This document shows, one piece after another, positions 4,598-59,430 of a stretch of DNA of 64,000 nucleotides. The notes beneath the pieces are model-generated. The model did not search any database. It had not been told where the DNA came from and was given only the letters and a program-made list of their open reading frames with translations. The stretch lies in the NCBI RefSeq assembly GCF_030705305.1, contig NZ_JAUZEE010000005.1, positions 124,001 to 188,000 on the forward strand, read 5' to 3'. Origin of the DNA: Leptothrix discophora. Lineage in GTDB: Bacteria; Pseudomonadota; Gammaproteobacteria; Burkholderiales; Burkholderiaceae_C. How positions within the stretch are numbered: the first letter of the stretch is position 1; each line of letters opens with the position of its first letter. The translations under genes were made by a program, and so were the position numbers.

Positions 4598-4700
4598 CCC
4601 GCCGGGCGAGGGGCAGCAACCACGGGCCGAGCGCCGGGCCGCCCCAAGCCGGCCCGATCCCCTCGGGGGATCGACCGGCGTACCCGCCGGGCGAGGGGCA
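4598..4700 (-). repeat. Structured GC-rich repeat, copy A
   Basis: One of six copies in the window of a palindrome-rich element (others near 15551, 16651, 32665, 46383, 59342). Read on the minus strand it has GCCCCTCG, a small stem around GGGTAC (CCGGC/GCCGG), a central GATCCCC/GGGGATC hairpin, and the core TTGGGGCGGCCCGGC between complementary arms (plus-strand GGGCCG 4624-4629 and CGGCCC 4650-4655). A second partial unit (CCCGCCGGGCGAGGGGC) adjoins at 4598-4614. It starts directly after the Crp/Fnr stop codon. Confidence 0.85.
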
Positions 4701-4704
4701 GCTA

Positions 4705-4720
4705 TGTGACGGTGGTCACA
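4705..4720. promoter_or_regulatory. CRP-like dyad TGTGA-N6-TCACA
   Basis: TGTGACGGTGGTCACA is a perfect match to the TGTGA-N6-TCACA consensus of CRP-type regulators. Its centre is about 81 bp before the DUF2892 start and it lies downstream of a Crp/Fnr-family gene. Binding by that regulator is inferred. Confidence 0.6.
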
Positions 4721-4723
4721 GAT

Positions 4724-4739
4724 CGTGAGATCGATCACG
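4724..4739. promoter_or_regulatory. Second CRP-like dyad CGTGA-N6-TCACG
   Basis: CGTGAGATCGATCACG is a perfect 16-bp palindrome with the same GTGA-N6-TCAC geometry as the site 19 bp upstream (centre to centre), about 62 bp before the DUF2892 start. Two near-helically phased sites suggest cooperative binding of two dimers. Confidence 0.55.
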
Positions 4740-4793
4740 CGCACACTGCCATGCATGCCGGCATCGGGCCGGACTCACCCAAGGACCTTCACC

Positions 4794-4988
4794 ATGTTCA
4801 AGACCAACGTCGGCGGCATCGACCGCATCCTCCGCATCGTTGCCGGCCTCGTGCTGATCGCGCTCGCGGCCACCGGGACCGTCGGGGCCTGGGGCTGGAT
4901 CGGCGTCGTGCCGCTCGCCACCGGGCTGCTGAGCACCTGCCCGCTCTACAGCATCGTCGGCCTCAACACCTGCCCGATGAAGTCCTGA
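4794..4988 (+). CDS. DUF2892 small membrane protein
   Basis: 64 residues beginning MFKTNVGGIDRILRIVAGL, with two hydrophobic segments (about 13-31 and 34-52) and the conserved LLSTCPLYSIVGLNTCP end carrying two Cys. This is the YgaP-type inner-membrane domain (DUF2892) found alone or fused to rhodanese domains; its function is unknown, with a sulfur or redox role suggested by those fusions. The ATG at 4794 fits family N-termini better than longer upstream frames. Probably controlled through the two dyads just upstream. Confidence 0.85.
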   Translation: MFKTNVGGIDRILRIVAGLVLIALAATGTVGAWGWIGVVPLATGLLSTCPLYSIVGLNTCPMKS

Positions 4989-4991
4989 GCT

Positions 4992-5729
4992 TCAGGCCGC
5001 GTCGGCCGGGTCGCGGTAGGCCGCGAAGATGTCGCGCAGCGGCGTCTCGCGGGCCGGTGACGGGCTGACCAGCGTGCGCTCCAGCTCCTGCAGGTGACGC
5101 CGCATCTCGCCGGCCGCCGCCGCGCCGCTGCCGCCCGTCAGGGCCTCGATCAGCTCGATGTGGCGGTGCGCCACGCAGGCCGGGTGACCGGGACGCTGGT
5201 AGAGCGCCATCAGGATGGACGTGCTGGGCAGCAGCTCGTCGAGCAGGCGCACGAACACCGGGTTGCCGCACATCTGCGCCAGCGCGCGGTGGAACTGGCC
5301 GGACAGGCGGATCGCGGCCGGCCGGTCGCCCCGCGCGTCCGCATCGGCCTCGGCCTGCACCAGCCCGCGCAGGTGGATGACCTGCGCGCCATCGAGCCGG
5401 CCAGCCAGGCGACGGGCGATCTCGCCCTCGACCACGCGGCGGGCATCGAAGACATGCCCGGCCTCGTCGCGGCTGGGCTGCGGCACCTGGGCGCCGCGGT
5501 TGTGGTGCAGCTCGATCACCTGGTCCTGCGCCAGCCGGTTCAGCGCCTGCCGGATGACGGTGCGCGAGACCGCGAAGCTGGTGGCCAGCTCGGCCTCGCG
5601 CAGCCGCATGCCGGGCGTCAGCCGGTGTTCGAGGATGGCCGTGTAGATGCCGTCGTAGACCCGCTGCGTGGCGGTCGGCTCGGGCGGGCTGGCGGTCTTC
5701 GCGGGGCTGGATCGGCGGGTGGCTGGCAT
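4992..5729 (-). CDS. GntR family regulator (FadR/FCD type)
   Basis: 245 residues: an N-terminal winged helix (about 22-90; LREAELATSFAVSRTVIRQAL) and a C-terminal all-helical FCD ligand domain (about 95-230) with spaced acidic and His residues (FDARRVVEGE, QFHRALA, AHRHIELIEAL) that normally bind a metal and a carboxylate. It is the last gene of the ABC importer operon, 53 bp after the second permease. Two TTTGTATGCAA-type palindromes in the transporter-racemase divergent region match FCD-type GntR operators and are its likely targets, with the transported compound as probable inducer. Confidence 0.88.
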   Translation of the reverse strand: MPATRRSSPAKTASPPEPTATQRVYDGIYTAILEHRLTPGMRLREAELATSFAVSRTVIRQALNRLAQDQVIELHHNRGAQVPQPSRDEAGHVFDARRVVEGEIARRLAGRLDGAQVIHLRGLVQAEADADARGDRPAAIRLSGQFHRALAQMCGNPVFVRLLDELLPSTSILMALYQRPGHPACVAHRHIELIEALTGGSGAAAAGEMRRHLQELERTLVSPSPARETPLRDIFAAYRDPADAA

Positions 5730-5782
5730 CGGATCGGACGATAGCCGGTCGTCGGTCCAGCCGCCTTTCAGCCGTCCGGCCG

Positions 5783-6664
5783 TCAGCCGCGCGCGCGCCG
5801 GCGCCACAGCGCCACCACCGTCAGCGTCAGGCCCATCACCAGGAAGGACACCACCGTCGTGACCGTGCCCAGCGCATAGATCACCGGCGTGGTCACGGTG
5901 GTCGTCAGGCCCTGCAGTTCGAGCGGCAGCGTGTTCAGGTCGCCCATGGCCTGGGAGCTGCGCGCGATCTCGTCCCAGCTCAGCGTGAAGCCGAACATGC
6001 CCACGCCCACCAGGCTCGGGCCGATCAGCGGCAGCACCACGTGGCGCAGGCTCTGCCAGGGCGTCGCGCCGAGGTCGCGGGCGGCTTCCTCGTAGGCCGG
6101 GTTGAAGCGGTTGAAGACCGCGAACATGATCAGCAGGCCGAAGGGCAGCGTCCAGGTCAGCTGTGCGCCCAGGCCGGAGGTGTACATGCCCAGCAGCGTC
6201 GAGAAGGCCTCGGCCGCCTCGGGCGACCAGCGCTCCAGCGCGGCCTTCACGCCGGCATCCATCAGCCGGAATTCCAGGCCCACGCCGAGCGAGACGATGA
6301 TGGACGGCATGATCAGGCTGGCCACCACCACGTAGAACAGCGGCGTGCCGCCGGGCAGCTGCTTGCGGTAGGCCAGGCCGGCCAGCAGCGACAGCACGAC
6401 GGTCAGCCCCATCACCGTCGCGCCCAGGCCCAGCGAGCGCCGGAAGGCCGAGCCGATGTCGACCACGCCGATGCCTTCCCACAGCTTCTCGAACCAGTGC
6501 AGCGACACGCCGCGCATCGGGAAGGTCAGGCCGCCTTCGGGGCCCTGGAAGCTCAGCACGAAGATCGCGAGCATCGGGCCGTAGAGGAAGACCACGAACA
6601 GCGCGAACACCGTCGCCAGCGCGTAGAAGCTCGCTGGGCGCTTGCGGCGCAGGGATCGGGCCAT
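5783..6664 (-). CDS. ABC transporter permease (PotC-type)
   Basis: 293-residue integral membrane protein with about six predicted helices and the EAA loop EEAARDLGATPWQSLRHVVLP, which contacts the ATPase. It resembles the PotC/YdcV branch of spermidine/putrescine-type importers. Its ATG (6664-6662) is 2 bp after the stop of the partner permease. The start MARSLRRKRP supplies positive charges before the first helix. Substrate not assignable from the permease; see the operon partners. Confidence 0.9.
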   Translation of the reverse strand: MARSLRRKRPASFYALATVFALFVVFLYGPMLAIFVLSFQGPEGGLTFPMRGVSLHWFEKLWEGIGVVDIGSAFRRSLGLGATVMGLTVVLSLLAGLAYRKQLPGGTPLFYVVVASLIMPSIIVSLGVGLEFRLMDAGVKAALERWSPEAAEAFSTLLGMYTSGLGAQLTWTLPFGLLIMFAVFNRFNPAYEEAARDLGATPWQSLRHVVLPLIGPSLVGVGMFGFTLSWDEIARSSQAMGDLNTLPLELQGLTTTVTTPVIYALGTVTTVVSFLVMGLTLTVVALWRRRARG

Positions 6665-6666
6665 GG

Positions 6667-7557
6667 TCACAGTTCCTTGCGCAGGTTCACCAGCCGCATC
6701 AGCGTGGCGATCATCATCAGCACGACCGCCAGCAGGATCACCGCGTTGGCCGCGGCCATCGGGAACTGCAGGTAGCTGGCCTGCACCTGGATCACCTTGC
6801 CGACCGAGGCGATCTGCTGGCCGCCCATCACGCCGACGGTGACGAAGTCGCCCATCACCAGGGCCAGCACGAAGATCGAGCCGATGATCAGGCCGGTGCG
6901 CGACAGCGGCAGCACCACGTGCCAGATCGTCTGCCAGGGCGTCGCGCCGTTGTCGCGGGCGGCCTCGATCAGGCTGCGGTCGATGCGCATCATGGTGTTG
7001 AAGACCGGCACGATCATGAACATCGTGTAGAGGTGCACGAAGGCGAGCACCACCGAGAAGTCCGAGAACAGCAGCCACTCGATCGGCTGGTCGACCAGGC
7101 CGGCGCCGACCAGGCTCTGGTTGATCAGCCCGTTGCGGCCCAGCAGCGGCACCCACGAGATCATGCGGATGACGTTGCTGGTCCAGAACGGCACGGTGCA
7201 GACGATGAACAGCACCATCTGCACCGTCAGGCTGCGCACGTGGAAGGCCAGGAAGTAGGCCAGCGTGGTGCCCAGCAGGCCGGTGACCAGCCAGGTGAGC
7301 AGGCCGAACTTCAGCGTCGACAGGTAGGTCTTGAAGGTCACGCACAGGTCGCCGTCGGCCGTCACCGGACAGCCGGTGAAGACGTCGACGTAGCTCTGTG
7401 CGGTGAAGGCCGGGATCAGCTCGTACTCGGTCGCCTGCCAGAAGCTCACCATCAGGATGAGCGCCAGCGGCACGACGAAGAAGACCACGAACACCGCCGC
7501 CAGCGGCGCCGCTTGAAGCCAGGCGATCAGCGATCGGGAGGAAGGTGTCCGTGTCAT
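6667..7557 (-). CDS. ABC transporter permease (PotB-type)
   Basis: 296 residues with about six transmembrane helices and the EAA loop IEAARDNGATPWQTIWHVVLP. It forms the heterodimeric channel with the downstream permease. A periplasmic loop after helix 1 contains a CPVTADGDLC pair of Cys that could form a disulfide. It lies 30 bp after the binding-protein gene in the importer operon. Confidence 0.9.
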   Translation of the reverse strand: MTRTPSSRSLIAWLQAAPLAAVFVVFFVVPLALILMVSFWQATEYELIPAFTAQSYVDVFTGCPVTADGDLCVTFKTYLSTLKFGLLTWLVTGLLGTTLAYFLAFHVRSLTVQMVLFIVCTVPFWTSNVIRMISWVPLLGRNGLINQSLVGAGLVDQPIEWLLFSDFSVVLAFVHLYTMFMIVPVFNTMMRIDRSLIEAARDNGATPWQTIWHVVLPLSRTGLIIGSIFVLALVMGDFVTVGVMGGQQIASVGKVIQVQASYLQFPMAAANAVILLAVVLMMIATLMRLVNLRKEL

Positions 7558-7587
7558 GTCGATCAGGCCGCTGCGTTCACCACTGCA

Positions 7588-8901: not shown

Positions 8902-8945
8902 CGGAGTTCTCCGGTTTGAGGACGGGGGAGGGAACGAGGGATGGC

Positions 8946-9977: not shown

Positions 9978-9984
9978 GTCCGGC

Positions 9985-9995
9985 TTTGTATGCAA
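9985..9995. promoter_or_regulatory. GntR-type operator, importer-proximal
   Basis: TTTGTATGCAA lies 8 bp before the ATPase start (minus strand), a position suited to repression. The same 11-mer occurs within the larger palindrome at 10155-10170. It matches the TTGTATNCAA style of FCD-GntR operators. Confidence 0.55.
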
Positions 9996-10154
9996 CCGGT
10001 GTGCCACCCCGGTCCGCTGCGGGGCTGGCCCCGCGGGCCTCCCCTTGCGCACTTCTTGCAACCGTGTCTCGTTGACCGACCCCGCGCCCATCGCCTTGCC
10101 CGGCGACGGTGCATGGCGTGCCGCGCGGCGGTGCCACGAACCATGGCAGTGCAT

Positions 10155-10170: not shown

Positions 10171-10208
10171 AGCTTGCACGCCATCGCCCGGAACCTGGAG
10201 ACACCTCG

Positions 10209-14987: not shown

Positions 14988-15521
14988 ATGTCCCTGATCC
15001 TCGATTGGTTCGACCGCCTGAGCGAGCGGCGCATGCGCCGCGTCGCGCAGTCGCACGGCCGGCGCAGCCTGGTCGGCAAGCTCGGCGTGGCGCTGGTCGG
15101 CGGTGCCGTGCTGCCCATGCTGCCCTTCGACCGCAGCGGCCAGTTCGGCAGCGCCCAGGCCGCAACGCCCAAGCCCGATCCGAACAACCCCGAGAAGTGC
15201 GAGTACTGGCGCTACTGCGCCTTCGACGGCTACCTGTGCACCTGCTGCGGCGGCTCGCTGACGCAGTGCCCGCCGGGCACCGAGGCCTCCAAGGTCTCGT
15301 GGGTCGGCACCTGCCTGAACCCCAACGACAACCGCCACTACCTCGTGTCCTACAACGACTGCTGCGGCAAGAGCGCCTGCGGCCAGTGCATCTGCAACAA
15401 CAACGAGCGCGAGCGTCCGGGCTACCGCCTGGGCGTGCACAACGACATCAACTGGTGCATGGCCAACACCAGCCCGATGTTCCATTGCACGACGTCGGTG
15501 ATCGTGGGTCTGGCGTCATGA
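14988..15521 (+). CDS. aauA: Aromatic amine dehydrogenase small subunit (TTQ-bearing)
   Basis: 177 residues. A twin-arginine signal (HGRRSLVGKLG, Arg25-Arg26) covers the first ~58 residues. The mature part has 14 Cys, as in Alcaligenes AADH. Trp105 (VSWVGTC) and Trp156 (INWCMAN) are 51 apart, the exact spacing of the two Trp that crosslink to tryptophan tryptophylquinone; Asp124 (YNDCC) and Thr168 (HCTTS) match the catalytic residues. The CTCCGG and DCCGKSACGQC patterns separate it from methylamine dehydrogenase. GAAGGAG at 14974-14980 selects the ATG at 14988 over the GTG at 14985. Confidence 0.93.
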   Translation: MSLILDWFDRLSERRMRRVAQSHGRRSLVGKLGVALVGGAVLPMLPFDRSGQFGSAQAATPKPDPNNPEKCEYWRYCAFDGYLCTCCGGSLTQCPPGTEASKVSWVGTCLNPNDNRHYLVSYNDCCGKSACGQCICNNNERERPGYRLGVHNDINWCMANTSPMFHCTTSVIVGLAS

Positions 15522-16045
15522 CGGCCCCCAGGTCCGGGCGTGGCCCGGCCCGCCCCCCGAGGGGGTCCAGGAACCTTGGGGCGGCCCGGCGGTTCCTGGC
15601 TTCCGCTTCGATGCGAGCCAGCCTGTCAACGGTGCTGACCGTGTGCGGAGGCGCGGCCGCAGCGGGCGATGGGGCGGCGCTCTACGCCGCCCATTGCGCC
15701 GCCTGCCATCAGGTCGATGGCAGCGGCACGCTGGGGCTGGCGCCGGCCCTGAAGGGGCCGCACTGGGCCACGCTGGCCGCGCGGCGCGACTACCTGCCGA
15801 CGGTGCTGCTCAAGGGCATGGCCGGCATGATCCGGGTGAACGGCCAGACGGTGGTCGGCTCGATGCCGGCGTTTGCCGCCGCACTGGACGATGCCGCGCT
15901 GGCGGCCATTGCCACGCACCTGGCGACCTTGCAGGGCGATGCCGCGCGGGCGCCGTACGAGGCCGCCGAGTTCGCGCCGTTGCGTGCAGTCGCCGGGGAC
16001 CCGGCCCGCACGCGGCAGTTGCGGCGCAGCGTGCTGGGCGATTGA
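15518..16045 (+). CDS. Monohaem cytochrome c of the aau cluster
   Basis: A class-I-like cytochrome with one haem site CAACH (60-64 from this start) and a probable Met ligand in GSMPAF or GMAGM. It would be the periplasmic electron acceptor of the amine dehydrogenase; a small monohaem cytochrome gene also follows aauA in Alcaligenes. The ATG at 15518 overlaps aauA (ATGA), but its first ~30 codons contain a copy of the GC-rich repeat (GARPPRG-like translation). A shorter start at 15611 (MRASLSTVLTV...) gives a normal signal peptide but no visible ribosome binding site. Confidence 0.82.
   Translation: MTAPRSGRGPARPPRGSRNLGAARRFLASASMRASLSTVLTVCGGAAAAGDGAALYAAHCAACHQVDGSGTLGLAPALKGPHWATLAARRDYLPTVLLKGMAGMIRVNGQTVVGSMPAFAAALDDAALAAIATHLATLQGDAARAPYEAAEFAPLRAVAGDPARTRQLRRSVLGD
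15551..15599 (+). repeat. Structured GC-rich repeat, copy B
   Basis: Partial copy: central CCCCC-GA-GGGGG hairpin and core TTGGGGCGGCCCGGC (15576-15590) flanked by CCAGGAACC (15567-15575) and GGTTCCTGG (15591-15599), a perfect 9-bp stem whose sequence differs from other copies. It lies in frame within the possible 5' end of the cytochrome gene. Confidence 0.8.
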
Positions 16046-16626: not shown

Positions 16627-16650
16627 GGCGCGTGACTCGGATCGCCGCGC

Positions 16651-16755
16651 CGCCCCAAGCCGGCCCGATCCCCCCGGGGGATCGCCCGGCGTACCCGCTG
16701 GGCGAGGGGTCAACAGGACTGCCGGGGGATCGCCCGGCGTACCCGCCGGTCGAGG
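16651..16755 (-). repeat. Structured GC-rich repeat, copy C (one and a half units)
   Basis: Minus-strand unit with core (one change), CCGGCCC arm, GATCCCC/GGGGATC hairpin and GGGTAC stem at 16651-16710, followed by a second partial unit at 16721-16755. The outer partner of the core arm is missing here, so this copy looks truncated. It fills the space between the cytochrome gene and the convergent YgjP-like gene. Confidence 0.78.
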
Positions 16756-16769
16756 GGCTCACATGACCC

Positions 16770-17810
16770 TCAATCGAAGACCGGCACCTGCCCGTCCTTG
16801 AGATGCCCTCGGCGGCTCTCGAAGTCGGGCATCACGGAGCGGACCACGTCCCAGAAGGCGGCGCTGTGGTTCATCTCGCGCAGGTGGGCGAGTTCGTGGG
16901 CGACCACGTAGTCGATGCTGGCCAGGCTGAAGTGGATCAGGCGCCAGTTCAGGCGCACCGTGCCGTCGGCGCTGGCGCTGCCCCAGCGGGTCTGGGCCGA
17001 ACTCAGGCGCAGGCGCGTGACGCGCACGCCCAGCTGGGCGGCGTAGTGGCGGCAGCGGGTCTCGAACAGCTCGATGGCCTGGCGCTGCAGCCAGCTCTGC
17101 ACCGCGTCGCGGATCTGGGCCGGGTCGGCGCTCTGCGGCAGGCCGATGTGCAGGGTGCGCTGGGCGATGCCGTCGAGGCCGCCCTGCAGGCTGGGCGCGG
17201 CGATGCCGTCGGCGCAGGCCTGGCTGCTGCGGCCGTCGCGCAGCTCGGCGCCGGCCACGCGCGCGTCCAGCACGATCAGCAGCGGCTCGCCGAGGTAGGG
17301 CAGGCTGGTGCCGTCGCGCCAGCTGACGCGGGCGGCGGCGATGCGCTCGATGCGCTCGTGCTGGTCGGCCAGCTTGCGCAGCACCCAGCGGGTCTTGCTC
17401 AGCAGCGCGGCGTCGATCTCGGCCTGGCCGACCCAGCGCGGCGCGCTGACCACCAGGCCTTCGGCACCGATGACGAAGCCGATGGTGCGGCGGCGGGCGC
17501 GCTTGAGCTCGTAGCTGACGGCCTGCCCGCCGAGCCGGATCTCGCGGTTGCCGCGCGGATGCCGCCACAGCGCGGAGTCGCCCTGCGGGGTCTCGGACGG
17601 GCGGCGCGGCTCGGCGACGGCCGGGCCGTGCGTGCTGGCGATGGACGGGGCTTGCTGCAAGGGGGCGGGCGGCGTCTGCGGTCCAGGACGCTGGACCGGA
17701 CGCGGGGGTGTGGCGCTGCGCAGCGACGGCGACTCGTCGCGCTCGAACAGGGGGAGTTCAAGCTGCGGCTGGTCTGGCTCCTGACGGGCTGCGGCGCGCC
17801 GGTTTTTCAT
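16770..17810 (-). CDS. YgjP-like M48-type metallopeptidase
   Basis: 346 residues. The C-terminal two thirds match the YgjP/DUF45 zinc peptidase family: REIRLGGQAVSYELKRARRRTIGFVI, VRVTRLRLSSAQTRWGSASADGTVRLNWRLI and the catalytic HELAHLREMNHSAAFW. The first ~90 residues are a Pro/Gln-rich, probably disordered extension. The ATG at 17810 is preferred over an in-frame TTG at 17819. The physiological substrate is unknown in the family. Confidence 0.88.
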   Translation of the reverse strand: MKNRRAAARQEPDQPQLELPLFERDESPSLRSATPPRPVQRPGPQTPPAPLQQAPSIASTHGPAVAEPRRPSETPQGDSALWRHPRGNREIRLGGQAVSYELKRARRRTIGFVIGAEGLVVSAPRWVGQAEIDAALLSKTRWVLRKLADQHERIERIAAARVSWRDGTSLPYLGEPLLIVLDARVAGAELRDGRSSQACADGIAAPSLQGGLDGIAQRTLHIGLPQSADPAQIRDAVQSWLQRQAIELFETRCRHYAAQLGVRVTRLRLSSAQTRWGSASADGTVRLNWRLIHFSLASIDYVVAHELAHLREMNHSAAFWDVVRSVMPDFESRRGHLKDGQVPVFD

Positions 17811-30649: not shown

Positions 30650-33355
30650 ATGAGCAAAGCACTGGTCATCGCCGAGAAGCCGTCTGTCGCGCAGGACATC
30701 GTCCGCGCCCTGACGGCGTCGTCGGGCAAGTTCGAGAAATTCGCCGAGCACTTCGAGAGCGACGACTACGTCGTCACCTCGGCGGTCGGCCACCTCGTGG
30801 AGATCAAGGCCCCCGAGGCCTACGACGTCAAGCGCGGCAAGTGGAGCTTCGCCAACCTGCCGGTCCTGCCGCCGCACTTCGACCTCGAGCCGATCGACAA
30901 GAGCAAGGGCCGGCTCAGCGCGGTGGTCAAGCTGATCAAGCGCAAGGACGTCACGCGCCTGATCAACGCCTGTGACGCGGGGCGCGAGGGCGAGCTGATC
31001 TTCCGGCTGATCGAGCAGTACGCGCTCGGTGCCAAGGCCGGCAGCAAGCCGGTGCAGCGCCTGTGGCTGCAGAGCATGACGCCGCAGGCCATCCGCGATG
31101 GCTTCGACAAGCTGCGCAGCGACGCCGAGATGCAGGGCCTGGCCCAGGCCGCCCGCAGCCGCAGCGAGGCCGACTGGCTGGTCGGCATCAACGGCACCCG
31201 CGCGATGACCGCGTTCAACTCGCGCGACGGCGGCTTCTTCCTGACCACGGTCGGCCGGGTCCAGACGCCCACGCTGTCCATCGTGGTCGAGCGCGAGGAG
31301 AAGATCCGCAAGCACGTCTCGCGGCCCTACTGGGAGGTGCGGGCCGACTTCGGTGCCGCGGCCGGCCTCTACGAGGGCAAGTGGTTCGACCCGAAGTTCA
31401 GGAAGGACGATGACGCCGAGCGCCGCGCCGACCGGCTCTGGAACGCGGCCGATGCCGAGGCCATCGCCGCGGCGGTGCGTGGCCAGCACGGCCGGGTCCG
31501 CGAGGAGGCCAAGCCCAGCAACCAGGCCAGCCCGCTGCTCTACGACCTGACGACGCTGCAGCGCGAGGCCAACTCGCGCTTCGGCTTCTCGGCCAAGACC
31601 ACGCTGTCGATCGCCCAGGCGCTCTACGAGAAGCACAAGGTCCTGACCTATCCGCGGACCGATGCGCGCGCGCTGCCGGAGGACTACCTGCCGGTGGCCA
31701 AGCAGACGCTGGGCATGATCGCCGACGAGGACCTGCCGGGGCCCCTTCGCGAGCTGGCCCAGCATGCCCGCAAGGCGCTCAACGACGGCTACGTCAAGCC
31801 GAGCAAGCGGATCTTCGACAACAGCAAGATTTCGGACCACTTCGCCATCATCCCGACGCTGCAGGCGCCGCGCGCGCTGACCGAGATCGAGGCCAAGCTC
31901 TACGACATGGTCGTCAAGCGCTTCATCGCGGTGTTCTACCCGTCGGCCGAGTTCATGGTCACCACCCGCATCACCGAGGTCCCGGCCGGCAACGCGCTGC
32001 CGGCCGATCTGGCCCGCGCCGTCGGCGGCACGCTCAGCTTCCAGACCAACGGCAAGGTGCTGGTCAACCCGGGCTGGCTGGCCGTCTACGGCAAGGAAGC
32101 GCAGGACGAGGACGCCAACCTCGTGCCGGTGCAGCCCGACGAGCGCGTCTCGGCCGAGGAACTGCGCATCGCCGCGCTCAAGACCCGTCCGCCGGCCCGC
32201 TACAACGAGGCCACGCTGCTGAGCGCGATGGAAGGCGCGGGCAAGCTGATCGACGACGAGGAGCTCAAGGCCGCGATGCAGGAGAAGGGTCTGGGCACGC
32301 CGGCCACGCGGGCGCAGGTCATCGAAGGCCTGATCCTCGAGAAGTACATGTACCGCGACGGCCGCGACCTGGTGCCCACCGCCAAGGCCTTCCAGCTGAT
32401 GACGCTGCTGCGCGGCCTGGCCGTCGAGGACCTGACCAAGCCCGAGCTGACCGGCCAGTGGGAGCACCAGCTCGCGCAGATGGAGAAGGGCAAGCTCAGC
32501 CGCGACGAGTTCATGGCCGGCATCGCCGACATGGCCCAGCGCATCGTGCGCAAGGCCAAGGAGTACGACCGCGACACCATCCCCGGCGACTACGCGACGC
32601 TGACGTCCCCTTGCCCGAACTGCGGCGGCACGGTCAAGGAGAACTACCGCCGTTTCGCGTGTGTGGGCCCCTCGTCGGCGGGTCCCTCGTCGATCCCCCG
32701 AGGGGATGGCGCCGCCCTTGGGAGCGGCCCGGCGGGCGGCTCTGGCAGCGTTGAACCGGAAGGTCAGGGCTGCGGCTTCTCCATCACCAAGATCCCGGCC
32801 GGCCGCAGCTTCGAGCTGCACGAGGCCGATGCCTTCCTGCGCGACCACCGCATCGGGCCGCTGGAGGGCTTCCGGTCCAAGGCCGGCTGGCCCTTCACCG
32901 CCGAGCTGAAGCTGGTGCGCGACGAGGAGATCCACAACTGGAAGCTCGAGTTCGACTTCGGCGAGGACGAGAAGAAGGCCCAGGAGGACGGTGAGCCGGT
33001 CGATTTCAGCGGCGCGCAGAGCCTGGGCGTGTGCCCGAAGTGCGCCGGCCACGTCTACGAGCACGGCACCAACTACGTCTGCGAGCACGCCGTCGGCGCA
33101 CACCAGACCTGCGACTTCAAGACCGGCGCGATCATCCTGCAGCAGCCGGTCACGCATGAGCAGGTCCAGAAGCTGCTGGCCACCGGCAAGACCGACCTGC
33201 TGGACGGCTTCGTCTCCAACAAGACGCGACGCAAGTTCAAGGCCTTCCTGAGCTACGACAAGAAGGAGGGCAAGGTCGTGTTCGAGTTCGAGCCGCGCGC
33301 GGCCCGGGTGCCGGCCAAGAAGGCGGCCAAGGCCGGCAAGGCCGACGCCACCTGA
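30650..33355 (+). CDS. topB: DNA topoisomerase III
   Basis: 901 residues. TOPRIM domain at the start (ALVIAEKPSVAQDIV, DAGREGELIFRLI), catalytic Tyr334 in LTYPRTD, then Zn-ribbon regions. The first ribbon has Cys655, Cys658 (CPNCGG), Cys671 and Cys708, with a 36-residue insert between the last two that is encoded by a copy of the GC-rich repeat. The second ribbon (CPKCAGHVYEH...) and a basic, Ala/Lys-rich tail follow. A type IA enzyme that decatenates DNA. Start chosen at ATG 30650, giving the usual MSKALVIAEKPS. Confidence 0.95.
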   Translation: MSKALVIAEKPSVAQDIVRALTASSGKFEKFAEHFESDDYVVTSAVGHLVEIKAPEAYDVKRGKWSFANLPVLPPHFDLEPIDKSKGRLSAVVKLIKRKDVTRLINACDAGREGELIFRLIEQYALGAKAGSKPVQRLWLQSMTPQAIRDGFDKLRSDAEMQGLAQAARSRSEADWLVGINGTRAMTAFNSRDGGFFLTTVGRVQTPTLSIVVEREEKIRKHVSRPYWEVRADFGAAAGLYEGKWFDPKFRKDDDAERRADRLWNAADAEAIAAAVRGQHGRVREEAKPSNQASPLLYDLTTLQREANSRFGFSAKTTLSIAQALYEKHKVLTYPRTDARALPEDYLPVAKQTLGMIADEDLPGPLRELAQHARKALNDGYVKPSKRIFDNSKISDHFAIIPTLQAPRALTEIEAKLYDMVVKRFIAVFYPSAEFMVTTRITEVPAGNALPADLARAVGGTLSFQTNGKVLVNPGWLAVYGKEAQDEDANLVPVQPDERVSAEELRIAALKTRPPARYNEATLLSAMEGAGKLIDDEELKAAMQEKGLGTPATRAQVIEGLILEKYMYRDGRDLVPTAKAFQLMTLLRGLAVEDLTKPELTGQWEHQLAQMEKGKLSRDEFMAGIADMAQRIVRKAKEYDRDTIPGDYATLTSPCPNCGGTVKENYRRFACVGPSSAGPSSIPRGDGAALGSGPAGGSGSVEPEGQGCGFSITKIPAGRSFELHEADAFLRDHRIGPLEGFRSKAGWPFTAELKLVRDEEIHNWKLEFDFGEDEKKAQEDGEPVDFSGAQSLGVCPKCAGHVYEHGTNYVCEHAVGAHQTCDFKTGAIILQQPVTHEQVQKLLATGKTDLLDGFVSNKTRRKFKAFLSYDKKEGKVVFEFEPRAARVPAKKAAKAGKADAT
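32665..32755 (+). repeat. Structured GC-rich repeat, copy D, in frame inside topB
   Basis: GCCCCTCG, GATCCCCCGAGGGGAT (32692-32707) and the core TTGGGAGCGGCCCGGC (one extra A) between arms GCCGCCC (32711-32717) and GGGCGGC (32734-32740). It is read through as a Gly/Ser/Pro-rich segment within the zinc-ribbon region of TopB without a frameshift. Confidence 0.85.
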
Positions 33356-39923: not shown

Positions 39924-40547
39924 ATGTCCGCTGTCCCTGACGCCCCGATGGACCCGATCGACCGCCCGCTCTCGTCCACCTCGCTGGTCCGCCTTGACGA
40001 TCCCGACCGCCCCGAGCCGGTCCGCCGTGTCGTCGCCGAACTCGCCGCCCAGGGCCATGCCCATCCGGTGCACTGGCTGGACGTGCCGGCCCGCACCGCG
40101 CAGGAAGCGGCCGACGCGCTGGGCGTCTCGCTCGGCCAGATCGCCAAGAGCGTGATCTTCCGGCGCCGTGCCGACGATGTCGCCGTGCTGGTCGTGACGG
40201 CCGGCGACCGCCGCGTCGACGAGGCCCGCGTGGTCGAGCACACCGGACCGATCGGCCGGGCCGACGCGGCCTACATCAAGGCGCAGACCGGCTTCTCGAT
40301 CGGCGGCGTCTCCCCGGTCGGTCACCTGAACCGGCCGGTGGTGCTGGTCGACGCCTCGCTCACGCGCTTCCCGGTGATCTGGGCGGCGGCCGGCCATCCT
40401 TGCGCGGTTTTCCCGCTCAGCCCAGACGAGCTGGTGCGGCTGTGTGGCGGGGCGCCGGTGCTGGCGGTCGTTCAGGGGGTCGTGCAAGGGGTCGTGCAGG
40501 CGGTCGTGCAAGCGGTCGTGCAGTCCCCCCCGGTGGACGCGGCCTGA
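39924..40547 (+). CDS. YbaK/EbsC-type aminoacyl-tRNA deacylase-like protein
   Basis: 207 residues. YbaK domain at about 30-180 with AKSVIFRRRADDVAVLVVTAGDRRVD and KAQTGFSIGGVSPVGH (the GxxxGGVSP block). Members hydrolyse mischarged Cys/Pro-tRNA. The C-terminus is extended by VVQG/VVQA repeats from a 12-bp tandem tract (40464-40523). Stop overlaps the next start by one base. Confidence 0.87.
   Translation: MSAVPDAPMDPIDRPLSSTSLVRLDDPDRPEPVRRVVAELAAQGHAHPVHWLDVPARTAQEAADALGVSLGQIAKSVIFRRRADDVAVLVVTAGDRRVDEARVVEHTGPIGRADAAYIKAQTGFSIGGVSPVGHLNRPVVLVDASLTRFPVIWAAAGHPCAVFPLSPDELVRLCGGAPVLAVVQGVVQGVVQAVVQAVVQSPPVDAA
40464..40523 (+). repeat. 12-bp tandem repeat, five units, in the YbaK-like gene
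   Basis: Five units of form G(C/G)GGTCGT(G/T)CA(A/G), encoding VVQ(G/A) repeats. As a multiple of three, unit-number changes keep the reading frame. Confidence 0.9.
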
Positions 40548-44424: not shown

Positions 44425-46377
44425 ATGACCGACGCTCCCGCCTCGCAGGCCCCGTCCTCCCCTTCCCGTCCAGCACCCTCCCGCGACAGCGCCGATGCCG
44501 GCTACCAGGCCACCCGCCGCCAGGGCCTGGCGGCGCTGACGCTGGGCGCCATCGGCGTGGTCTACGGCGACATCGGCACCAGTCCGCTCTACACCATGAA
44601 GGAGATCTTCGCGCCCGCCACCGGCGTGCCGCTGGACGCGGCCAGCCTGATCGGCGCGGTCTCGGTGATCTTCTGGGCCCTGATGCTGGTGGTGACGCTG
44701 AAGTACGTCGTGCTCATCCTGAGGGCGGACAACCATGGCGAAGGCGGGGGGCTCGCGCTGACCGCCCTGGCCGCGCAGGCGGTGCAGGGCCAGCCCCGGC
44801 TGCGCCACGCCCTGCTGCTGCTGGGCGTGTTCGGCGCCACCCTGTTCTACGGCGACAGCGTGATCACGCCGGCGATCTCGGTGCTGGGCGCCGTCGAGGG
44901 CCTGCATCTCATCACCCCGACGCTGGATGCCTGGGTCGTGCCGCTGTCGGTGCTGATCCTCGTCGGCCTGTTCGCGCTGCAGCGCCATGGCACGGCGGTG
45001 GTGGGGCGCTGGTTCGGGCCGGTGATCGTGCTGTGGTTCGTCACGCTGGGCGTGGCCGGCGGGGTCCACATCGCCGAGGCGCCAGCCATCCTCGCGGCGC
45101 TCAACCCGGTCCATGCCTGGGACTTCCTGGCCGGACGCGGCTGGCATGTCTTTGCCGCGCTGGGCGCGATCGTGCTGGCATTGACCGGCGCCGAGGCGCT
45201 CTATGCCGACATGGGCCACTTCGGCCGGCGGCCGATCCAGCTGGCCTGGACCGGCCTGGTCATGCCCTCGCTGGCGCTGAACTACCTCGGCCAAGGGGCC
45301 CTGCTGATGAACGACCCGACCGCCATCGAGAACCCGTTCTACCGCCTGTTCCCCGATGCCTGGCTGCTGCCGGCCGTGGTGCTGGCGACGGCCGCCGCCA
45401 TCATCGCGTCCCAGGCGGTCATCTCGGGCGCCTACTCGATGACGCGCCAGGCCATCCAGCTCGGGTTCCTGCCGCGCATGCGGGTGCGCCACACCTCCGC
45501 CCGCGAGGCCGGCCAGATCTACCTGCCGGCCGTCAACTGGGTCCTGCTGGCGGGCGTCGTCGCCGCGGTCCTGCACTTCGGCAGCTCGTCGGCGCTGGCG
45601 GCGGCCTACGGCATCGCGGTCACGCTGACGATGTTGATCACCACCTTGCTGACCTGGTTCGTGGTGCGACGCGCCTGGCGTCTGCCGGCACCGCTCGCGA
45701 TCGCCGCGACGGCCTTCTTCCTGACGCTCGACGTGCTGCTGGTGGCCGGTTGCGCGGTCAAGTTCCTCGACGGCGGCTGGTTCCCGCTGGTCCTGGGCCT
45801 GCTGCTGTTCGTCGCGATGAGCACCTGGTCGCGGGGTCGCAGCCAGCTGCTGGCCGGCATCCGCCGCGACGGCCTGGACCTGCGCCCCTTCGTGGACGGT
45901 CTGGACACCGTCGGCATCTGCCGCGCCGACCGCACCGCCGTCTACCCGGTGGCCGACCCGACCACGGTGCCGCAGGCGCTGCTGCACAACCTCAAGCACA
46001 ACCAGGTCCTGCACCTGACCAACGTGATCCTGACGGTGGTCTTCGAGCCGGTCCCCTGGGTGGCGATGAGCGATCGCATCGAGGTCGAACCGCTCGGTCA
46101 TGGCTTCTGGCGCGTGACCTTGCGCTATGGCTTCATGAACACGCCGGACGTCCCCCAGGCGCTGACGCTGGCGGCCTCCCACGGCCTGCGCGTGCCCGTG
46201 TTCGAGACCAGCTATTTCCTCAGCCGCGAGACCGTGGTGCCGACACCCGGCCAGGGCATGGCGGCGTGGCGCGAGTCGCTGTTCGCGGTCATGAGCCGCC
46301 ATGCGAGCGACGTGTCGGCCTTCTTCCGCCTGCCCGACAACGCGGTCGTCGAACTGGGGACGCGCGTCCAGATTTGA
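44425..46377 (+). CDS. kup: Low-affinity potassium uptake protein
   Basis: 650 residues of the Kup/HAK/KUP family with about twelve helices. Begins [26 protein letters not shown], the family signature, and includes [43 protein letters not shown] and [18 protein letters not shown] cytoplasmic C-terminal domain follows. It imports K+ with protons. Placed just after the KdpDE-like pair. Confidence 0.95.
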
Positions 46378-46382: not shown

Positions 46383-46488
46383 GCCCCTCGCCCGGCGGGT
46401 ACGCCGGTCGATCCCCCGGGGGGATGCCCGCCGGCTTGGGGCGGCCCGGCGCCCGGCGGGGCTGTCAGCCCCTCGCCCGGCGGGTCAG
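46383..46488 (+). repeat. Structured GC-rich repeat, copy E
   Basis: Most complete copy: CCGGC/GCCGG stem around GGGTAC (46392-46407), GATCCCCC/GGGGGAT hairpin, core (46436-46450) between arms CCCGCCGG (46427-46434) and CCGGCGGG (46453-46460), then a second partial unit (GCCCCTCGCCCGGCGGG, about 46468-46484). Fills the gap between kup and the convergent regulator gene. Confidence 0.87.
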
Positions 46489-47120
46489 GCTTCCAGCAGT
46501 CCCCAGCGCAGCGCCAGCAGCGTCAGTTCGGCCTGGTTGGCGGCGCCGAGCTTCTGCTTGACGTTGTAGAGGTGGGTGCCGACGGTGCTGGCGCTGAGCT
46601 TCAGCCGGCTGGCGATGTCGGCCACGCTGGCGCCGCGGGCCAGCATCACGAAGACCTCGAACTCGCGCTCGGACAGCGCGTCGACCGGGTTGGGCTCGTT
46701 GCCCAGCTGCGCCAGCGCGAGCTTCTGGGCGATGGCCGGGTCGATGTAGCGCTGGCCGGCGGCGACACGCCTGATCGCGTCGACCAGCGCCTCGGGCGCG
46801 CCGCGCTTGCTCAGGTAGCCCTGCGCGCCGGCGGCCAGCACGCGGCGCGGGTGGGCGGTGTCCTCGTGGGCCGACAGCACCAGCACGCGCAGCGTGTCGT
46901 CGCGGGCGCGCAGCCGCCGCAGCAGCTCCAGGCCAGACATGCCGGGCATCGACAGGTCCAGCACCAGCAGGTCGGGGCGGTTGCGCTCCAGCTCGGCCAG
47001 CGCCTCGTCGCCGGAGCCAGCCTCGGCGACCACCTCGATGTCGGCGCCGGAGGACTCCAGCAGCATCTTGAAGCCCATGCGGACGATGGTGTGGTCGTCG
47101 ACCAGCATGACGCGGATCAT
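46485..47120 (-). CDS. NarL/LuxR-type response regulator
   Basis: 211 residues: receiver with Asp55 (LLVLDLSMPGMSG) and a C-terminal LuxR helix-turn-helix (LSEREFEVFVMLARGASVADIASRLKLS region). Coupled (ATGA) to the kinase gene. Related pairs regulate PQQ-linked alcohol oxidation in other bacteria; here the pair is divergent from pqqA, so control of pqq is a reasonable inference. Confidence 0.9.
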   Translation of the reverse strand: MIRVMLVDDHTIVRMGFKMLLESSGADIEVVAEAGSGDEALAELERNRPDLLVLDLSMPGMSGLELLRRLRARDDTLRVLVLSAHEDTAHPRRVLAAGAQGYLSKRGAPEALVDAIRRVAAGQRYIDPAIAQKLALAQLGNEPNPVDALSEREFEVFVMLARGASVADIASRLKLSASTVGTHLYNVKQKLGAANQAELTLLALRWGLLEA

Positions 47121-55570: not shown

Positions 55571-56151
55571 GCCCAGCCCCAGAACAGGAAGATCGCGACG
55601 ATGTGCGCCAGCGCGAGCAGCGCGAAGGCCAGCGTGATCGGGATGTGGATGACGCGCCACTGGCGCACCGCGTCGAAGGTCATGCTGTCCCAGTAGGTGC
55701 GATCGGCCAGCTCGGCGGGCGACAGGCCCTGGGCGCGCAGTCCCTCGCGCGCCGCGTCGAGCCGGCGGCGCGAACGGTCGAGCAGGAACTTGCCGGTCAG
55801 GCCGCTGATGACGTTCAGGCTCATGGCGGCCACCGCCAGCCAGCCGAGGATGGCGTTGAAGTGGATGCCCGCATGCACCAGCACCAGCAGCGAGCCGAGC
55901 CAGGCCAGGACCTCGTGGGCGCGCAGCCAGCCCACCGGTGAACCGGTCTGGATGTGGCGGCGCTTGCGCAGCGAATAGCCGAACGACGCCACGATCAGCA
56001 GCGTGCCGGGAATGCCCAGCCAGCGGCCGATCCAGGCGATGCCCAGGCGGTGCAGCAGCAGGTCGATCAGCAGCGTGGCCAGCGCCAGCGTCACGAGGTA
56101 GACCAGGAAGGGCAGCACCTCGCGGCGCATCAGGCGGGCTTGTCGTGCCAT
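55567..56151 (-). CDS. Cytochrome b-like membrane protein
   Basis: 194 residues with about four membrane helices. His residues suited to bind haem b sit in LRAHEVLAWLGSLLVLVHAGIHF (split) and VIHIPITLAFALLALAHIVAIF, two His-bearing helices as in DUF4405/b561-type cytochromes. It probably moves electrons across the membrane from the reductase to the octahaem protein. Overlaps both neighbours (1 bp and 4 bp). Confidence 0.82.
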   Translation of the reverse strand: MARQARLMRREVLPFLVYLVTLALATLLIDLLLHRLGIAWIGRWLGIPGTLLIVASFGYSLRKRRHIQTGSPVGWLRAHEVLAWLGSLLVLVHAGIHFNAILGWLAVAAMSLNVISGLTGKFLLDRSRRRLDAAREGLRAQGLSPAELADRTYWDSMTFDAVRQWRVIHIPITLAFALLALAHIVAIFLFWGWA

Positions 56152-57416
56152 CAGGCCTCCAGCACGAGGGCGGTGAGCGGGCGGGCCACGCAGGGCAGGC
56201 AATGGCCGGCGGGGACGTCGTGGTCGGGCGTGCCGTCGTAGCCGACCCGGCCGTCGATCAGCCGGGTGGCGCAGGTGCCGCAGCCGCCGGAGCGGCAGCC
56301 CGATTCGATCGGCACCGCATGGCGCTCGGCGAAGTCGAGCAGGCTGGCGTCCTGGCCATCCCAGACGAGGCTGCGGCCGCTGCGCTGGAAGCGGATCGGC
56401 AGCCTGGCGGCCGAGGCGTCGCGCGTCGCCGTCGCCGCCGGGCGCTGGACCGAGGCCGGACCGAAGGCCTCGAAGCGGATGTCCTCGTCGGGCACGCCCC
56501 ACGCGCGCAGTGCCGGCACCAGCGTGCCCATCATCGCGCCCGGGCCACAGATGAAGAAGCGGTGGCGGCCGTGCGGCAAGGTCCGCTGCAGCAGCGCCAG
56601 GTCGACATGGCCTTCGTGGTGGTGGTCGACGCCCAGCCTGTCCGATGCCTCCGGCCGGCTGTAGACCACGTGCAGGCGCAGGGCTGGATGGCTGGCCTGC
56701 AGCGCCTGCAGATGGGCCTGGAAGGCGTGCTCGCGGCGACTGCGCAGGCCGTAGTAGAGGTGGACCGGGCGTGCGGGCTGGTGCGTGATCAGCCAGCCCA
56801 GCATCGACACCATCGGCGTGATGCCGATGCCGCCGGCCACCAGCACGGCCGGCACGGATGCGTCCTCGTCGATGTGGAAATGGCCCGAGGGTGCGCGGAC
56901 CTGCAGGATGTCGCCGACCTGCACCTGGTCATGGAAGTGGTTGGACGACAGCCCCGCTGGCCACTCCGGATGATCGGCCGGCGCCGGCACGCGCTTGATC
57001 GTGACCCGCAGCTGCGGCAGGCCGGGACGATCGGACAGCGAATAGCAGCGCGTCACCTGGCGCTGGCCACCGGGCGCGCGCGCATCGGGCAGGTCGAGCG
57101 CGAAGGTCAGGAACTGGCCCGGCCGGAAGGACGGCGGCGGCGTGCCGTCGACCGCTTCGAGCAGGAAGGAGCACTGCGTCTGCGCCAGGTCCTCGTGCTG
57201 GCGGGCGACCACCCGCCACGGCCGGGTGCCGGGCCAGGCCAGCGGCTGGCGCAGATCGGTCGATGGATCGGGATCGGCATCGGTCGCAGCCGGGTCTGGC
57301 CGATCCGCTGCGCGCTGGCGCTGGCGAATGGCCAGCACCGCCACGCCAACGGCCTGCAGCAGCAGGGCCGCGACGATCAGGCCGAGCAGCTGGCCGGCAT
57401 CGGGTGCGGGAATCAT
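56151..57416 (-). CDS. FAD/NAD(P)H oxidoreductase with C-terminal [2Fe-2S] domain
   Basis: 421 residues: an N-terminal membrane helix (about 8-28), a ferredoxin-NADP reductase-like module (about 65-310) with the FAD motif RCYSLSD and NAD(P) motif GGIGITPMVSM, and a plant-type [2Fe-2S] domain at the end (CRSGGCGTC plus CLPC). It should oxidise NAD(P)H in the cytoplasm and feed electrons to the membrane cytochrome. First gene of the three-gene operon; direct-repeat arrays lie in its promoter region. Confidence 0.88.
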   Translation of the reverse strand: MIPAPDAGQLLGLIVAALLLQAVGVAVLAIRQRQRAADRPDPAATDADPDPSTDLRQPLAWPGTRPWRVVARQHEDLAQTQCSFLLEAVDGTPPPSFRPGQFLTFALDLPDARAPGGQRQVTRCYSLSDRPGLPQLRVTIKRVPAPADHPEWPAGLSSNHFHDQVQVGDILQVRAPSGHFHIDEDASVPAVLVAGGIGITPMVSMLGWLITHQPARPVHLYYGLRSRREHAFQAHLQALQASHPALRLHVVYSRPEASDRLGVDHHHEGHVDLALLQRTLPHGRHRFFICGPGAMMGTLVPALRAWGVPDEDIRFEAFGPASVQRPAATATRDASAARLPIRFQRSGRSLVWDGQDASLLDFAERHAVPIESGCRSGGCGTCATRLIDGRVGYDGTPDHDVPAGHCLPCVARPLTALVLEA

Positions 57417-57444
57417 GTCGTGGGGCGTCCTTCCGGGGCCCATT

Positions 57445-57503
57445 CTTCGGCATCGCCGATGAACCCTTGCTGAGCTTCGGCAGCGCCGATGAGCCCTTGT
57501 TGA
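57445..57503. repeat. Two 29-bp direct repeats before the oxidoreductase gene
   Basis: Imperfect copies (CTTCGGCA.CGCCGATGA.CCCTTG.TGA) at 57445-57473 and 57475-57503, differing at three positions, in the promoter region of the cytochrome operon. Confidence 0.85.
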
Positions 57504-57534
57504 CCTGGCGCACGCCGGGATGCCGGGACGCTGG

Positions 57535-57588
57535 GACACCGGTGCGACACCGGCGCGACACCGGCGCAACACCGGTGCGACACCGATC
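57535..57588. repeat. 11-bp periodic repeat array between LysR gene and oxidoreductase operon
   Basis: About five units of GACACCGG(T/C)GC, each 11 bp, running into the LysR stop codon. The period is close to one DNA turn, so repeats lie on one face of the helix. Confidence 0.85.
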
Positions 57589-58504
57589 AGGTCGGGTCCG
57601 GCGTCTCCCACCAGCGCCCCTGCAGGGATGCCTGCAGGTGGACGATGAAGCTGGTGACCTTCGAGGGCACCAGCTTGGGCGAGGGGAAGACCGCGTGGAT
57701 CTCCTGAGACGGCGGCGCATGGTCGCCCAGCACCGCCACGACGCGGCCGTTGTCGAGCGACTCGCGTGCCACGTACCAGGGCAGCATCGCCAGACCCAGC
57801 CCGCCGCGCGCGGCGGCCAGCACGGCCGACAGGTTGTTCGAGCGCAGCGGTCCGCGCACGGGCACCGACTGCGTCGCGGCCGTGCCCGGTGCGCCCAGGC
57901 TCCAGCGGTCGTCGCCCTGCACGCTGCTGTAGACCAGGCAATCGTGTTGCGCCAGGTCGCTCAGCGTCTGCGGACGGCCGCGCCGGGCCAGGTAGTCGGG
58001 CGCGGCCACCATCACCCAGGGGTTGTCACCCAGGTAGCGCGCGCCCAGCGACGAGTCGGCCAGCCGGCCCATGCGGATGGCCAGGTCGACGCCCTGCTCG
58101 ATCAGGTCGACGTAGCGGTCGTCGAAGCTCAGGTCGATGCTCACGCCTGGGTGCAGCGCCATGTAGCGCAGCACGCGCGGCACCAGCACGCGCCGGCCGA
58201 AGGCCACCGAGGTGCTGACCCGCAGCTGCCCGCCGACGCGGCTCTGCAGCAGCGTGGCGAGGTTGTCCGCCTCGTCGATCTCGTGCGCGATGCGCTTGCA
58301 CTTGTCGTAGTAGATCGTGCCGACCTCGGTCGGCGTGACCCCGCGCGAGGAGCGGTGCAGCAGCCGCGCGCCCAGGCGCAATTCCATCGCCGCGACGGCC
58401 TTGGTGGCGGTCGGCTGGGTGATGCCCAGTTCCACGGCGGCGCGGCTGAAGCTGCCGGTCTCGACCACGCGGATGTAGAGCTGCACGCTGGTGATGCGGT
58501 CCAT
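57587..58504 (-). CDS. LysR family regulator
   Basis: 305 residues: N-terminal winged helix (GSFSRAAVELGITQPTATKAVAAMELRLG) and a periplasmic-binding-protein-like effector domain. It belongs to the DhpR/PA-type branch in which regulators often act on adjacent genes. It is on the same strand as, and upstream of, the reductase-cytochrome operon and divergent from the DsbA-like gene, so it could control either. Confidence 0.88.
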   Translation of the reverse strand: MDRITSVQLYIRVVETGSFSRAAVELGITQPTATKAVAAMELRLGARLLHRSSRGVTPTEVGTIYYDKCKRIAHEIDEADNLATLLQSRVGGQLRVSTSVAFGRRVLVPRVLRYMALHPGVSIDLSFDDRYVDLIEQGVDLAIRMGRLADSSLGARYLGDNPWVMVAAPDYLARRGRPQTLSDLAQHDCLVYSSVQGDDRWSLGAPGTAATQSVPVRGPLRSNNLSAVLAAARGGLGLAMLPWYVARESLDNGRVVAVLGDHAPPSQEIHAVFPSPKLVPSKVTSFIVHLQASLQGRWWETPDPT

Positions 58505-58614
58505 GGCCGGACTTTAGGGTGCAACGGTCATCGACGGCGGCCTAGACTTCGCACCCGCAAGGCCCGACGCCTGGGCGACCGGGTCGCCGGCGAGGCGGGC
58601 CAGGAGGTGCGGTC

Positions 58615-59337
58615 ATGAGCGAACAGACGGTCCCGATGACGATCGAGGTGGTATCCGACGTGGTGTGCCCGTGGTGCGCGGTCGGCGTCAGCTCGCTGAT
58701 GCGCGCGGTCGAGCAGCTGGAGGGCGAGCTCTCGCCACGGATCCGTTTCGAGCCCTTCGAGCTCAACCCGACGCTGGGCCCGGGCGGCGCCGACATCGTC
58801 GACTACCTGAGCCGCAAGTACGGCTCCACCCCGGCGCAGATCGAGCAGATGCACGCCAAGATCGCCGAACGCGGCGCCTCGGTCGGCTTCGCCTTCTCGA
58901 TGGACAAGCGCAGCCGCACCTACAACACCTTCGACGCGCACCGCCTGCTGCACTGGGCCGGCGAGGTCGATGCCGAGGACGGCGGCACGCGCCAGCTGGC
59001 CCTGAAGCAGGCCTTGCTCAGCGCCCACTTCACCGATGGCCGCGACCCCGGCGACCACGGCCTGCTGATCCGGTTGTGCGACGCGGTCGGCCTGGACCCG
59101 AACCAGGCCGCCGTCATCCTGACCGGCAACGCCCATGCCGACGCGGTGCGCGAGCGCGAGCAGTACTGGCAGGAGCTGGGCATCCATTCGGTACCCGCCT
59201 TCATCGTCAACGACACCCACCTGATCGAGGGCGGCCAGCCCCCCGAGGTCTTCGTCGCCGCCCTGCGCCAGATCGCCGCCGAACGCGCCGGCGACGCCGG
59301 CCCCGAGACGACGGCGTCGACCGATCTGGAGCTCTGA
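58615..59337 (+). CDS. DsbA/FrnE-like oxidoreductase
   Basis: 240 residues, no signal peptide, with the redox motif Cys18-Pro-Trp-Cys21 (SDVVCPWCAVG) and a helical insertion; SVPAFIVND contains the cis-Pro. This is the cytoplasmic FrnE/2-hydroxychromene isomerase-like branch of the DsbA family. May act in disulfide or stress metabolism. Confidence 0.88.
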   Translation: MSEQTVPMTIEVVSDVVCPWCAVGVSSLMRAVEQLEGELSPRIRFEPFELNPTLGPGGADIVDYLSRKYGSTPAQIEQMHAKIAERGASVGFAFSMDKRSRTYNTFDAHRLLHWAGEVDAEDGGTRQLALKQALLSAHFTDGRDPGDHGLLIRLCDAVGLDPNQAAVILTGNAHADAVREREQYWQELGIHSVPAFIVNDTHLIEGGQPPEVFVAALRQIAAERAGDAGPETTASTDLEL

Positions 59338-59341
59338 CATG

Positions 59342-59430
59342 CGGCCCCTCGCCAGACGGGTACGTCTGGCGGTCCCCCGGGGGGACGCCGGGCCGGCTTG
59401 GGGCGGCCCGGCGCTCGGCCCGGGGCTGGC
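59342..59430 (+). repeat. Structured GC-rich repeat, copy F
   Basis: Stem I is GCCAGAC/GTCTGGC around GGGTAC (59351-59370), where other copies have CCGGC/GCCGG: the two sides changed together. Core between GGGCCG (59390-59395) and CGGCCC (59416-59421). Fills the gap between two convergent genes. Confidence 0.87.

Follow-up and report, generated by a model that had tools for sequence, protein, structure and literature searches.

The Beta-proteobacterial repeat element (BRE) was described by Hot et al. in 2011 as a GC-rich repeat of about 90 bp (75-91 bp in Bordetella) that forms tandem units, lies mostly between genes with some copies inside them, and varies in copy number, with no more than 29 copies in the published table; its hosts include Bordetella, Comamonadaceae and Azoarcus, with Polaromonas, Delftia, Acidovorax and Rhodoferax among those named (PMC3110155). 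A BRE region of B. pertussis yields the bprJ transcripts, of about 70 nt, and the passages of the paper accessible to us give neither a structure, nor a rule of placement at stop codons, nor a function for the repeat (PMC3110155). Here we analyse a stretch of 64,000 nucleotides of the Leptothrix discophora genome (contig NZ_JAUZEE010000005.1, positions 124,001 to 188,000; the whole stretch is called the window below), which carries six copies of a structured element of about 80 bases that fits BRE and that in this genome is usually set, in sense, close behind a stop codon.

The match to BRE was made on size, tandem habit and taxa, by description rather than by sequence alignment. As in the accessible part of the BRE description, the units are of a similar size, occur in tandem and are mostly intergenic with some genic copies: among the 70 arrays of this genome, 65 are intergenic and 5 lie inside called genes. 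The element is found in Bordetella genomosp. 4, where locus L143 has the full layout, and in Polaromonas, Delftia, Acidovorax, Rhodoferax and Achromobacter among others; among the matches listed, 100 of the 119 named loci with an exact core belong to Betaproteobacteria. Unlike BRE as published, which reaches 29 copies at most in the table referred to, it has at least 83 copies in a single genome here. A previous look at the window, made from the letters alone (the sequence-only reading), knew of no named family for the repeat, and in this it was wrong.

Other short repeats offer partial parallels. Some E. coli REPs lie less than 16 nt from a stop codon and are reported to protect the mRNA 3' end or to slow the terminating ribosome (PMC12306157, in the part available). 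The ends of GTAG REPs often provide the stop codon of flanking open reading frames, and Bordetella repeats are grouped among the untagged families, according to the accessible part of PMC3733652. Our element resembles the enterobacterial and pseudomonad REPs in being palindromic, numerous and placed at gene ends, and differs from them (20-40 bp) in having three hairpins, a length of 80 nt and no linked Y1 transposase, and apparently in being untagged: reading the listed copies by eye showed neither a GTAG nor a CGTC end tag, the tags named in the title of PMC3733652. It can also be likened, in general terms, to the enterobacterial RU elements, which in the portion of PMC2759123 at hand are short non-autonomous repeats able to sit in frame inside genes, and which differ from it in size and structure.

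From the analysis given below we consider it rather probable, with considerable room left for other explanations, that the element is a BRE-type short non-autonomous mobile repeat which spreads as a DNA hairpin and lands at AT-rich gene ends.

Architecture and covariation of the unit

The unit consists, in order, of GCCCC, hairpin I (9 variable pairs, with a loop that is often GGTA), hairpin II (a C run, a 3-base loop and a G run) and hairpin III, whose variable arms of 8-10 pairs enclose TTGGGGCGGCCCGGC and whose right arm often has one bulged T. A search of the 4.65 Mb genome gives 67 occurrences of the exact core and none of the reversed core, used as a control. The sequence-only reading had called for a covariance-model search; run on the whole genome, it finds at least 83 copies. 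This model (R1) was built from alignment A1, comprising 38 of the 51 one-per-array copies picked for their common layout, and since the searches of each genome scored 150 first-look candidates, the copy counts are lower bounds and possibly low. Thirteen of the 70 arrays contain 2 or 3 tandem units, and the spacing of the 12 neighbouring exact-core pairs is 77-91 bp in 11 and 59 in one. One further genome (G083) has 37 exact cores, several of them 108-111 bp from their neighbours, and no match to the model; the core there belongs to a repeat unit of another kind.

A known structured-RNA family of Rfam was rejected as identity, there being no window match at gathering score to the Rfam covariance models and none at E 0.1 in five loci. 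In two genomes (G118 and G157) a short reading frame could be followed by eye across the unit; it was likewise dropped, because GC-rich repeats are open in many frames and the copies of L. discophora do not keep this one.

The arms of hairpins I and III are strongly variable and yet complementary. In alignment A1, which represents 38 of the 67 exact-core copies with rows picked for clean layout and is so biased toward structure, 93.0% of the cells are paired in the named structure versus 75.7% in shuffles, 145 cells have changes on both sides versus 43.6 in shuffles, and such changes affect 17 of the 24 pairs. Every slid control of this pairing was far lower than the true structure; a measure of further pair types was less extreme, being reached by 17 of 500 shuffles. 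A less selected test took all 453 distinct core matches (up to 2 mismatches) in three sets, where hairpin III arms of at least 7 pairs were present in 106 of 119, 163 of 182 and 105 of 152 copies, versus 53.0, 28.4 and 10.5 with right arms shuffled. Both tests agree with the original impression that the arms covary around a constant core. It had been presented as evidence for selection of a folded RNA or cruciform, and for a folded RNA it is not supported as worded, as departures from pairing do not favour G.U.

If the sense RNA is what is selected, G.U should be tolerated in the stems and A.C should not. Among 363 distinct hairpin III arm pairs, taken from the fourth pair outward, and 82 hairpins I, we counted 18 G.T and 28 A.C, the hairpin III positions 0-2 having been set aside for this count after a first count over all positions had been seen; that first count, 73 G.T and 35 A.C, points in the opposite direction. 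The per-position listing puts most of the G.T excess within the three innermost hairpin III pairs, and we ascribe it to a core that is one base longer and to the bulge, which shift the register. On the 38-row alignment alone the numbers are 3 and 10. Control stems gave G.T to A.C ratios of 13:0 in 12 tRNAs and 16:8 in 93 terminator-like hairpins, and the element differs from both (Fisher P 6e-5 and P 0.043, respectively). The departures therefore point to DNA-level pairing or to palindromes made by templating, and the paired arms look to have been preserved as DNA rather than as RNA.

The second of these options deserves a separate word. Template-switching during replication could rewrite imperfect palindromes without any selection on the folded state, and the strand symmetry of the departures agrees with it, as does the comparison of tandem neighbours, in which hairpin III (64 neighbour pairs) has 16 Watson-Crick base-pair differences on both sides, nearly as many as the 21 on one side. 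In stem I, though, all differences between neighbours are one-sided (2 of 65 base pairs in 7 neighbour pairs), arrays that mix two subtypes can mimic the both-side count, and both the constant core and the placement at gene ends are left unexplained, so that we regard copying error as a rather improbable explanation of the palindromes.

Placement next to stop codons

Genes were called by a simple codon-usage caller and not taken from annotation. Fifty-five of the 65 intergenic arrays follow a gene of the same sense, and 53 start 0-10 nt past its stop codon. In the 34 convergent gaps, the sense stop is within 10 nt of the array in 33 and the far side in 3; uniform placement would give 9.3 cases of such stop adjacency, with a maximum of 20 in 100,000 simulations. 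The sequence-only reading stated that copies lie in both orientations, which holds for the window (four plus, two minus) and hides a strong rule of this genome, where almost every element runs in sense with the gene that it abuts. Adjacency is also seen elsewhere: intergenic arrays no more than 20 nt from the sense stop make up 14 of 17 in G049, 17 of 22 in G118, 21 of 28 in G157 and 7 of 11 in G248. Many copies in the last three of these genomes lie in operons, between a stop codon and the following start codon. In some operon copies (L252, L258, L353, L085, L096, L114) the right arm of hairpin III resembles a Shine-Dalgarno sequence (GGAGG) just before the start codon, an arrangement that could couple translation of the neighbour genes.

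Gene ends that bear the element have a composition of their own. Over 12 positions tested in 54 genes with and 227 genes without the element, A or T is present at position -5 in 70% versus 29% (P 3.6e-8) and at position -6 in 56% versus 26% (P 6.7e-5), and the end TGTGA is found in 11 of the 54 versus 6 of the 227. The stop codons at element-bearing ends are 48 TGA, 4 TAG and 2 TAA in L. discophora and 49, 27 and 23 in other genomes; with nine other genomes pooled, TAR stops account for 56% versus 30% (P 4.5e-5). This stop-codon rule, by which sense copies abut the stop and AT-rich ends are preferred, is new here: none was found for BRE in the open literature searched, where most subscription papers are missing.

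The same placement is what would be expected from the strongest rival explanation, a functional RNA of the 3' untranslated region (3' UTR), in which stop-adjacent hairpins keep exonucleases away from the 3' end of the mRNA or hold back ribosomes at termination, and selection rather than an insertion preference makes the adjacency. The sense orientation with 0-10 nt spacing in 53 of the 65 intergenic arrays, the use of all three stop codons, the E. coli REP precedent in the accessible part of PMC12306157 and the bprJ RNA of PMC3110155, as far as seen, are all in its favour, and, with strict intrinsic terminators being rare (in 2 of 54 arrays and at 1 of 30 control ends), there is room for an element that protects 3' ends. 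On the other side, G.U is not above A.C in the element stems, unlike in tRNA stems, the AT-rich gene ends suggest a DNA target, and the distribution described below, with no copies in 7 of 13 members of the genus and most tested sites unshared, counts against it as well. We hold this explanation to be possible and somewhat doubtful.

Least probable of all is that the element works as an intrinsic transcription terminator. Its gene-end position and strong hairpins would suit such a role, yet by eye the 67 listed copies show no regular T run after hairpin III, and at two sites of this genome (L034 and the second array of L044) a conventional T-run hairpin, conserved in relatives, stands beyond the element. 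Under the strict search, terminators were too scarce in both elements and controls for a comparison.

Copy number, site occupancy and a proposed mode of spread

Copy number is patchy. Among 13 genomes of the genus, searched at E 0.001, six have 83 (a lower bound, as above), 49, 40, 18, 18 and 4 copies and seven have none, two of the latter being less than 85% complete. Occupied sites are mostly unshared as well. For 20 sites, a hand-picked part of the 53, an orthologous gene end was available in G303, the nearest relative searched: 4 sites share the element in place and sense, 2 have it in opposite orientation in the same convergent gap, and 14 are empty. It is also absent from 9 of 10 stretches compared in G300 and from 5 of 5 in each of G304 and G305. 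Most of the 14 empty G303 ends, though not every one, have an identical or similar last codon, and from this we conclude that the AT-rich gene end probably came first and the element later. At the shared site L049 (L411 in G303), hairpin I has two pairs with substitutions in both strands of the stem and no pair with a substitution in just one; another shared site (L010) shows a one-sided difference. The two orthologous convergent gaps with opposite orientations (L412/L053 and L419/L024) suggest inversion or separate insertions. In viral contigs (L463-L542) the element was found in 30 of the 80 loci put to the model, with 36 matches at E 0.001, and it may also be present in prophages or at prophage edges; a plasmid search with copy 6 gave no match.

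The high-copy palindromic, gene-end and tandem habit of the element, together with the presence of Y1_Tnp in 8 of the 11 other tested genomes that carry copies, would fit a REP/REPIN-type repeat whose mover is a REP-associated (Y1) transposase. Y1_Tnp is, however, absent from this genome, the most copy-rich of the genus, and present in the 12 other members, zero-copy ones included; the 2-3 kb stretches of all 11 Y1 loci lack the core (up to 2 mismatches) and no GTAG or CGTC tag is seen by eye. A RAYT was rejected as mover on the absence of Y1_Tnp from this genome and the lack of linkage to the core, and the REP/REPIN origin as a whole is very improbable in our opinion. A rolling-circle element of the Y2/IS91 type was rejected too, since Y2_Tnp occurs in only 2 of the 13 genomes of the genus, one of which has no copies.

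In the explanation we favour, a mobile BRE-type repeat, the three-hairpin element of about 80 bases would spread as a hairpin-forming DNA strand, and its local multiplication would produce the tandem arrays. New copies would survive mainly at gene ends, where, against the GC-rich background of the genome, the stop codon and the preceding codon make up an AT-rich spot that the insertion step would favour. With the 5' end of the element set against the stop codon, the copy would usually come to lie in sense orientation in the 3' UTR, and transcription into 3'-UTR hairpins would be a consequence of the placement and not its cause. A more specific version, that the element moves as a single-stranded DNA hairpin without a Y1 or Y2 enzyme and lands on stop codons, its three hairpins being palindromic as DNA with a sequence free to drift, we put forward tentatively, as a speculation.

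Besides the opposite direction of the first wobble count and the late exclusion of the inner pairs, several observations weigh against the mobile-repeat explanation. Stop adjacency (up to 20 nt) is weaker in other places, namely 6 of 11 in G294, 3 of 16 in G201 and 19 of 57 in mixed GTDB loci (80 of 120 such loci were put to the model); in the latter set another 17 of 57 abut the stop of an antisense gene by their 3' end, in categories that can overlap. The pooled other genomes show little AT signal at position -6. No mobilising gene was found, the distributions of Y1_Tnp and Y2_Tnp in the 13 genomes of the genus not tracking the copies, and no clean target-site duplication is defined. The four sites at which G303 has the element in the same position and orientation would also be consistent with a kept function, and the bprJ RNA of B. 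pertussis shows, in the accessible passages of PMC3110155, that BRE can be expressed.

Copies in the window and meaning of the finding

The covariance model finds exactly six strong matches in the window, at 46 to 85 bits with the next match at 21 bits, and six structured copies of one family are thereby borne out; four are among the 38 training rows of the model, so their scores are not independent, and the copies at 16632 and 32667 are outside the training set. All positions are collected in Table 1. Two of the starts given in the sequence-only reading, 15551 and 16651, need a correction of about 20-30 nt. The core of 15 bases that it took as shared is exact in four of the six copies, with 1 mismatch at 16644-16658 and 2 mismatches at 32719-32733, where the sequence reads as a core one base longer. 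Its statement that arms are complementary in five of six copies is correct, the copy at 16632 being the broken one, and its placement of most copies in gene-end gaps is true for five, the sixth lying inside a topB-like reading frame.

Table 1. Copies, partial units and parts of the element in the window
Feature	Position	Strand	Score	Remarks
Copy 1, full element	4621..4699	-	85.1 bits	Between + gene ending 4597 and - gene ending 4992
Further unit, start only (truncated)	4598..4614	-		Abuts the stop codon of the + gene; from sequence, inverted-repeat pair I17
Copy 2	15524..15601	+	55.0 bits	Begins 2 nt past stop codon at 15521
Copy 3	16632..16710	-	59.9 bits	Broken arms in hairpin III; 1 mismatch in the core
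Partial unit upstream of copy 3	16712..16758	-	21.1 bits, E 0.015	About 11 nt past stop codon of - gene 16770-17660
Copy 4	32667..32744	+	46.3 bits	In frame within topoisomerase III-like gene 30650-33355
Copy 5	46383..46462	+	76.7 bits	Begins 5 nt past stop codon at 46377
Further unit, start only (truncated)	46468..46485	+		Ends at stop codon of convergent gene 46485-47120; from sequence, inverted-repeat pair I20
Copy 6	59344..59424	+	83.6 bits	Begins 6 nt past stop codon at 59337
Hairpin I of copy 6	59350..59371	+		Variable stem, GGTA loop; alignment A1 columns 7-29
Hairpin II of copy 6	59372..59386	+		C run / G run; alignment A1 columns 30-44
Hairpin III of copy 6	59389..59422	+		Variable arms, constant core 59398-59412; alignment A1 columns 49-82

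Copy 4 separates two halves of a Cys motif in the translated topB-like frame, and this in-frame copy is absent in 5 of 5 relatives. The site of copy 2 is empty in G303 (locus L427), which reads TGACG-ATG there without the element. A core search limited to the window, with 3 mismatches allowed, gave 22 matches versus 15.3 expected, far less striking than the genome-wide result, and the fold stability of single copies is unremarkable for their composition (z from +0.11 to -2.84 as RNA and from -0.36 to -4.77 as DNA). Elsewhere in the window, the called gene 39948-40547 includes a short tandem repeat at 40457-40521, which is in frame and made of four overlapping copies of 29 bases set 12 bases apart.

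BRE has had a name since 2011 and, in the passages of PMC3110155 accessible to us, no proposed function. The stop-codon rule makes two questions testable: what moves the element, and whether a stop-adjacent hairpin has an effect on mRNA ends or translation in high-GC betaproteobacteria. The G.T versus A.C count is, in addition, a simple probe of RNA-level versus DNA-level covariation, to which this family, with its many diverged copies, is well suited.

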